The notes under the pieces were generated by a model that saw nothing but the letters and a program-made list of their open reading frames with translations, ran no database searches and was not told the origin of the DNA. From positions 1-54,076 of the forward strand of contig JAHWKY010000032.1 of the NCBI GenBank assembly GCA_019347575.1: a DNA stretch of 54,076 nt, written 5' to 3'. The translations under genes were made by a program, and so were the position numbers. Within the stretch, counting starts at the first letter, position 1, and the number at the start of each line of letters is the position of its first letter. This stretch comes from Actinomycetota bacterium (lineage in GTDB: Bacteria; Actinomycetota; Nitriliruptoria; Nitriliruptorales; Nitriliruptoraceae). This document shows positions 45,449 through 46,323 of the stretch, one piece after another.

Positions 45449-45469
45449 GCCGATCGCTCCGCCGCCGCG

Positions 45470-45647
45470 CGCTCGCCCCGAGAACCACCGTATCCGGTGG
45501 CTCCGGTCGGTATCCGGCGACTCGGTGGGGTGTCCGTGCGCGCTCGCCCCGAGAACCACCGTATCCGGTGGTTCCGGTCGGTATCCGGCGCCTCCGGATG
45601 GCGACCGGTGCGGACGATCGCCTGGGAACCACCGTATCCGGTGGTTC
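45470..45647. repeat. Palindromic repeat cluster
   Basis: Three copies of a 22-bp palindrome, GAACCACCG TATC CGGTGGTTC, at 45482-45503, 45553-45574 and 45626-45647; the first has one changed base. The first two sit in a longer repeat of about 50 bp that also includes CGCTCGCCCCGA before and CGGTCGGTATCCGGCG after. Spacing is 71 and 73 bp. They lie between two convergent genes and could form transcription-terminating hairpins or a mobile REP-like element. Confidence 0.85.
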
Positions 45648-45675
45648 CTGGAGCTCGCCCGGCGGGGCGCGGATG

Positions 45676-45750
45676 GCGCCGGGGCGAGGATGGCGCGGGT
45701 GGCGCGGGGCGAGGACGGCGCGGGGCGAGGACGGCGCGGGGCGAGGGGCC
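45676..45750. repeat. GC-rich short tandem repeat
   Basis: Repeats of about 16 bp, GAGGACGGCGCGGGGC, two exact copies at 45711-45742 with degenerate flanking units. Located immediately past the selenoprotein stop codon. Confidence 0.7.
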
Positions 45751-45756
45751 TGGCGT

Positions 45757-46323
45757 TCAACCCGAGCGCTCGTAGCCGCGGTCGTCGATCCAGGGCTCGT
45801 CATCGACGCCGAGACCGTCGGCGATGCGGTTGATGTAGTTGAAGTAGGAGCACACCTGGGCGCAATCGGAGATGGCGGCGTCCGACCATCCGACCCCGCG
45901 TAGCACGTCGACGTCCGCACGCGAGCACGCCCCGGGCGTTCGCGTCAGCTTGTCGGCGTACTCGAGCAGCGCCCGCGTCGCCGGATCGATGCCGCAGTTG
46001 CGCCAGTCGTCGCAGAACCGATCGACGAGCGCTTGGTCGTCGACCTCAGCCCGGAGGTCGTGCAGGTGGGACTTCGTTCAGTAGTGGCAGTCGTTGGCCA
46101 TCGAGGTGACGACCGCGATCATCTCGCGCTGGGCGCGCGACAGCTCGGAGTCGCCGAACATCGTCGCCTTGTACAGCCGCATCGACTCACGCAGCATCGC
46201 CGGGGACTGGCTCTGGACCGCGACGATCTCCCAGATCCGTCCCGCCCGTGCGACGGCCGCTTCGAACTCCCGACGGAGAACGCCCTCGGCGGCCTCCGGC
46301 GGGATCTTCTCCACGTACGCCAT
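45757..46323 (-). CDS. Selenocysteine-containing AhpD-like (carboxymuconolactone decarboxylase family) protein
   Basis: A 188-residue reading frame containing one in-frame TGA at 46080-46078 (codon 82). Before it: MAYVEKIPPEAAEGVLRREF, LSRAQREMIAVVTSMANDCHY. After it, without any shift: TKSHLHDLRAEVDDQ, YADKLTRTP, SYFNYINRIADGLGVDDEPW. In this peroxidase-related family the helix motif is CxxC...H; here Cys79-His-Tyr-X82 places TGA exactly at the second Cys, giving CxxU. A SECIS-like stem-loop starts 17 bases after TGA. Family members reduce peroxides through the CxxC pair; selenium would raise reactivity. The start has GGGGAAG nearby. SelA/B/C/D are not in the window. Without Sec decoding, an 81-residue truncated protein would be made. 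Confidence 0.85.
46041..46060 (-). promoter_or_regulatory. Putative bacterial SECIS element
   Basis: On the minus strand, stem CGACCTC, loop CGGGCT, stem GAGGTCG: 7 perfect pairs. The stem begins 17 bases and the loop 24 bases after the TGA. A G is at loop position 2. Bacterial SECIS hairpins lie just after UGA within the coding region with a G early in the apical loop, so all features fit. Confidence 0.75.

Follow-up and report, generated by a model that had tools for sequence, protein, structure and literature searches.

An AhpD-like gene of the TIGR01926 family with a predicted selenocysteine at codon 82 in a Nitriliruptoraceae contig

The window, by which we mean the whole stretch of 54,076 nucleotides analysed here, contains an AhpD-like gene that, judging from its sequence, very probably encodes a selenoprotein, the selenocysteine (Sec) being read from the UGA at codon 82. 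By homology the product is a member of the AhpD/CMD fold and of the peroxidase-related subfamily TIGR01926. The family, the pattern at codon 82, the CxxU motif with the spacing of its Glu and His, the SECIS-type hairpin and selA, selB and selC are all read directly from the DNA. A preliminary description of the window had already proposed a selenoprotein, and the proposal is borne out by the Sec/Cys pattern at codon 82, by selA, selB and selC, by a second selenoprotein gene in the genome and by a hairpin that falls within the bacterial SECIS (bSECIS) constraints. The features are collected in Table 1.

Table 1. Positions in the window of the predicted selenoprotein gene and its elements
Feature	Positions	Strand	Description and basis
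AhpD-like (TIGR01926, peroxidase-related) predicted selenoprotein gene	45757..46323	minus	188 codons + stop; ATG at 46323, terminal TGA 45759-45757
In-frame TGA, codon 82, read as selenocysteine	46078..46080	minus	translation and codon 82 of homologues
CxxU active-site motif C79-H-Y-U82	46078..46089	minus	translation and homologue alignments
bSECIS-type hairpin	46041..46060	minus	7-bp stem CGACCUC/GAGGUCG, loop CGGGCU; MFE folding, position kept in 26 clade members

Translation of the minus strand with TGA read as U gives MAYVEKIPP...NDCHYUTKSHLHDLRAEV...YINRIADGLGV...ERSG. Codon 82 is the only internal TGA of the 188-codon frame and lies in the context C79-H-Y-U82-T-K-S-H86; 106 residues, including YINRIADGLGV, follow U82 before the terminal TGA (codon 189). 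The coordinates, residue numbers and motif of the preliminary description were exact on re-translation; it had left the strand unnamed, and the plus-strand reading of 45757-46323 as a gene was ruled out, being nonsense with a TAG. It had also expected standard annotation to report two truncated ORFs, which is right for the 5' half, contained in a 270-aa ORF that ends at the TGA, but not for the 3' half, which has no in-frame ORF of at least 60 aa in the ORF list and would therefore be lost in standard annotation. The gene is corrected here; standard annotation would cut the product at codon 81.

Codon 82 was compared among homologues collected from 84,980 species genomes by a scan with an alignment as query; a single-protein query gave pattern matches and no confirmed relative. 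The in-frame UGA aligns with Cys or UGA of the homologues, and conserved sequence lies on both flanks. As the preliminary description had predicted, the position is occupied by Sec or Cys codons: in the best 80 of more than 570 relatives, a sample that represents the neighbourhood of the window gene and not the whole TIGR01926 family, codon 82 is TGA in 52, TGC or TGT in 28 and anything else in none, and other internal stops are nearly absent. Identity reaches 58-59% in the closest relatives of the searched set, and within the same best 80 the nearest 43 homologues, spanning 59 to about 40% identity, all carry TGA at codon 82. These 43 come from Acidimicrobiia, Acidobacteriota, Chloroflexota, Planctomycetota, Armatimonadota, Gemmatimonadota, Myxococcota and other groups. 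The CxxU branch of TIGR01926 is consequently no rarity: in the closest homologues, most of which are metagenomic, Sec is the usual form.

On a tree built with the codon 82 column masked, the Sec and Cys labels require 2 changes, versus 24.8 for shuffled labels. The window gene groups with one Acidimicrobiia and one Acidobacteria sequence (support 100/98), and a Cys clade of Bacteroidota, Balneolota and Gemmatimonadota sits among the Sec rows; the tree thus disagrees with a single Sec clade, yet the AU test does not reject one (p 0.324). Within its own class, a match at E <= 1e-15 occurs in only 8 of 66 genomes, that of the window included, and the presence of the gene is therefore patchy. Among the other class matches, one genome (G009) has the CxxU form and one (G021) a GAPU form, which is described below, while the rest have Cys forms. 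Horizontal transfer would be a fair guess for what lies behind this distribution. A plasmid search gave no lead, its relatives being Cys-type or unclassified and less than 60% identical.

Family and fold assignments agree. The protein matches NCBIfam TIGR01926 with 131.4 bits (cut-off 81.8) and Pfam CMD (PF02627) with 47.1 bits (cut-off 23). Its AlphaFold model is all-helical, with the CMD/AhpD fold, and the best Foldseek matches are the solved relatives 2pfx, 3c1l, 2oyo and 6k40, with TM of about 0.72-0.76 for a model of middling quality (mean pLDDT 76.7, with confident values between about residues 45 and 165). A small alignment shows no variation at Glu67, codon 82 or His86. The spacings E67-C79 and U82-H86 equal those of Glu118-Cys130 and Cys133-His137 in the Glu/Cys/Cys/His relay of Mycobacterium tuberculosis AhpD.

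The gene stands near a sigma-factor-like gene, a sulfatase and DUF1214 genes. In flanks of 3 kb, no neighbour gene recurs across the Sec homologues except in near relatives; the sigma-factor-like, sulfatase and DUF1214 genes accordingly give no functional lead. The preliminary description had considered the vicinity of an ECF sigma factor worth attention; this arrangement is not conserved among Sec homologues and looks incidental, and the fragment of the sigma-factor-like gene that was searched has no Pfam match. Just 3' of the gene and before the DUF1214 gene, at 45457-45760, short repeated units of the types GAACCACCGTATCCGGTGGTTC and GGCGCGGGGCGAGGAC were seen by eye, and similar units, CCGTATCCGGTGG-like or ATCCG, were glimpsed elsewhere in the ORF translations of the genome.

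From these elements we infer a mode of synthesis and action. SelA would make Sec-tRNA-Sec from selenophosphate, and SelB with the charged tRNA would bind the hairpin just downstream of the UGA and insert selenocysteine at codon 82 in the cell. The product would be an all-helical thiol/selenol oxidoreductase in which Sec82, at the place of the second Cys and near His86 and Glu67, would by analogy with AhpD act as the peroxidatic residue and attack a hydroperoxide or a related electrophile; Cys79 would then resolve Sec82, forming a selenenylsulfide, and the enzyme would be regenerated by a cellular thiol reductant. Hydroperoxides are the substrate that we favour, by a small degree and by analogy. 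The protein may instead be a selenoprotein of another kind, namely a thiol/selenol disulfide reductase, a redox adaptor or an enzyme with another electrophile as its substrate, a reading that we hold to be possible, if the less probable one. We know of no settled substrate for TIGR01926 proteins, no conserved gene partner points to one, and the debrominase Bmp8 (6ohi, 6ohj; E about 1e-4) is also among the fold matches; against this, the arrangement E-x11-C-x2-U-x3-H fits the AhpD relay and the closest structures are named peroxidase-related or AhpD.

The genome holds most of the machinery needed for decoding UGA as Sec. A tRNA-Sec gene (selC) with anticodon TCA scores 76.8 bits, over the Rfam cut-off, SelA scores 498.5 bits, SelA and SelB are both over their cut-offs, and the selA and selB genes adjoin. 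Downstream of selAB, on the minus strand beside selB-selA, lies a formate dehydrogenase alpha gene (G000:C26; L021:1249-4548) with TGA at the Sec site, ENQARI-U-HSSTVPG; when read through the TGA it matches NF041513 with 1815 bits. The hairpin of this formate dehydrogenase gene has the loop GGUCU, as do several distant AhpD-like homologues.

The preliminary description had proposed looking in the full genome for selA, selB, selC and selD. The first three are present, whereas neither the family model nor a same-order SelD used as query recovered selD from the assembly of 120 contigs (estimated 98.8% complete). The selD model gave three partial matches, which were judged from their sequences and gene neighbours to be ThiL, HypE and PurM, and the sole match to the same-order SelD was HypE. 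Among the 66 class members, selA is over the cut-off in 44 and selD in 49; the selD of class members often itself has an in-frame TGA. An assembly gap would be the simplest reading of the absence. Alternatively, the gene could be a true selenoprotein gene that is undecoded here since selD has been lost, with translation stopping at UGA-82. The missing selD speaks for such a loss, but an assembly in 120 contigs could lack a gene that the organism has, 49 of the 66 class members have selD, and intact selA, selB, selC and Sec formate dehydrogenase genes would be difficult to account for if Sec were no longer decoded; we therefore consider it quite unlikely. Because the assembly has no selD but does have intact selA, selB and selC and two intact selenoprotein genes, an organism truly devoid of selD that makes selenoproteins by activating selenium in another way is conceivable, with a still slighter probability.

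The hairpin of Table 1 is the candidate signal for Sec insertion. Its stem begins 17 nt and its loop 24 nt after the UGA. The preliminary description had placed a hairpin 24 bases after the TGA; the 7-bp stem, the G at loop position 2 and the 24 nt to the loop stand, while the stem itself starts at 17 nt. The bacterial bSECIS model has a loop of 3-9 nt, a stem of 4-16 bp, a G in the first two loop positions and a loop lying 16-37 nt after the UGA (PMC13188914). The hairpin agrees with this model in its 6-nt loop, its 7 bp, its G at position 2 followed by another G, and its distance of 24 nt. Rfam gives no match around the gene.

On the window sequence alone the hairpin is weak evidence: its folding energy is ordinary for the composition (z = 0.19 and -0.33 versus shuffles) and, with z near 0, was rejected as an argument for it, and when synonymous codons of the window gene alone are permuted 23% of the permutations reach the observed score, which is not significant. 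Across the clade the predicted hairpin is supported. The best SECIS-like score in the homologues has a mean of 17.2 behind TGA and 9.0 behind Cys codons, and synonymous-codon permutation across homologues gives a mean z of 1.11 for TGA and 0.20 for Cys, values for which, the rows being related, no probability is claimed. In 26 close members the 7-bp stem lies at equal distance from the UGA, with 93% of cells paired versus 21-45% for slid pairings, and the basal pair varies from C-G to U-A or U-G. A letter-shuffle control of covariation is marginal (27/500 for the score, 87/500 for the percentage paired); this control is weak because coding constraint keeps the peptide D-L-R-x-E-V, which writes most of the stem. 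In remoter TGA homologues other hairpins are found at 16-19 nt, some of them with a GGUCU-type loop.

A sequencing error or recent nonsense mutation, by which the second Cys codon of a CxxC protein became TGA and left a pseudogene, would take one substitution from TGC or TGT in a family that does have Cys forms, but is hardly credible given that the nearest 43 homologues among the best 80 of more than 570 share the TGA at exactly codon 82, that the frame is otherwise intact, that selA, selB, selC and a further selenoprotein gene are present in the genome, and that the hairpin lies at the position of the clade.

AhpD-like selenoproteins were said in the preliminary description to be known from surveys, and CxxU members of TIGR01926 are indeed catalogued (PMC13188914, PMC9312934, PMC2398784). 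Reviews of 2022 and 2026 list an AhpD-like selenoprotein, COG2128/TIGR01926, with CxxU and the example MCB9421940.1 (PMC13188914, PMC9312934), and a survey of ocean sequences in 2008 counted 299 'AhpD-like 1' COG2128 CxxU sequences (PMC2398784). The gene described here adds to an already known selenoprotein family, and its correction is useful for annotation and unsurprising to a specialist. A Sec/Cys pair from the TIGR01926 family would be well suited to testing what advantage selenium gives within the AhpD fold.

Outside the window, we also observed a separate AhpD-like group (TIGR01926, 89 bits) that has TGA at the equivalent codon and no first Cys, with [NG]-G-A-P-U versus CxxU. Its members are L033/L128 (G021:C316), L129, L130, L131 and L132. 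In 396 genomes of the phylum 5 members were found, each with the TGA and with a 6-bp hairpin in a constant place, whose loop, CGUGC, lies 20 nt after the TGA. In the reviews searched, the AhpD-like selenoprotein entries are CxxU (PMC13188914, PMC9312934), and a Sec form that lacks the resolving Cys may therefore be undescribed so far.

Among known systems, M. tuberculosis AhpD (1knc, 1gu9) shares the CMD fold with the protein described here, but has CxxC in place of CxxU, 12-13% identity and a weak fold match. The Cys-type peroxidase-related structures 2pfx, 3c1l, 2oyo and 6k40 are nearer, with the same family and fold, and their Glu, Cys, Cys/Sec and His positions align with those of the protein described here; they differ in having Cys at the second position, where Sec is predicted here, and are 27-33% identical. 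The model NF041238 (AhpD_rel_CFYUT) has a similar C-x-Y-U-T motif in an AhpD-related domain and its C-terminal part aligns, but it spans 357 positions versus 188 aa here, and the score of 66.2 bits lies far below its cut-off of 175. The catalogued AhpD-like CxxU selenoprotein (MCB9421940.1), compared by description, shares the TIGR01926 family and the Sec at the second position, and no essential difference was found, the copy described here being carried by a high-GC genome.
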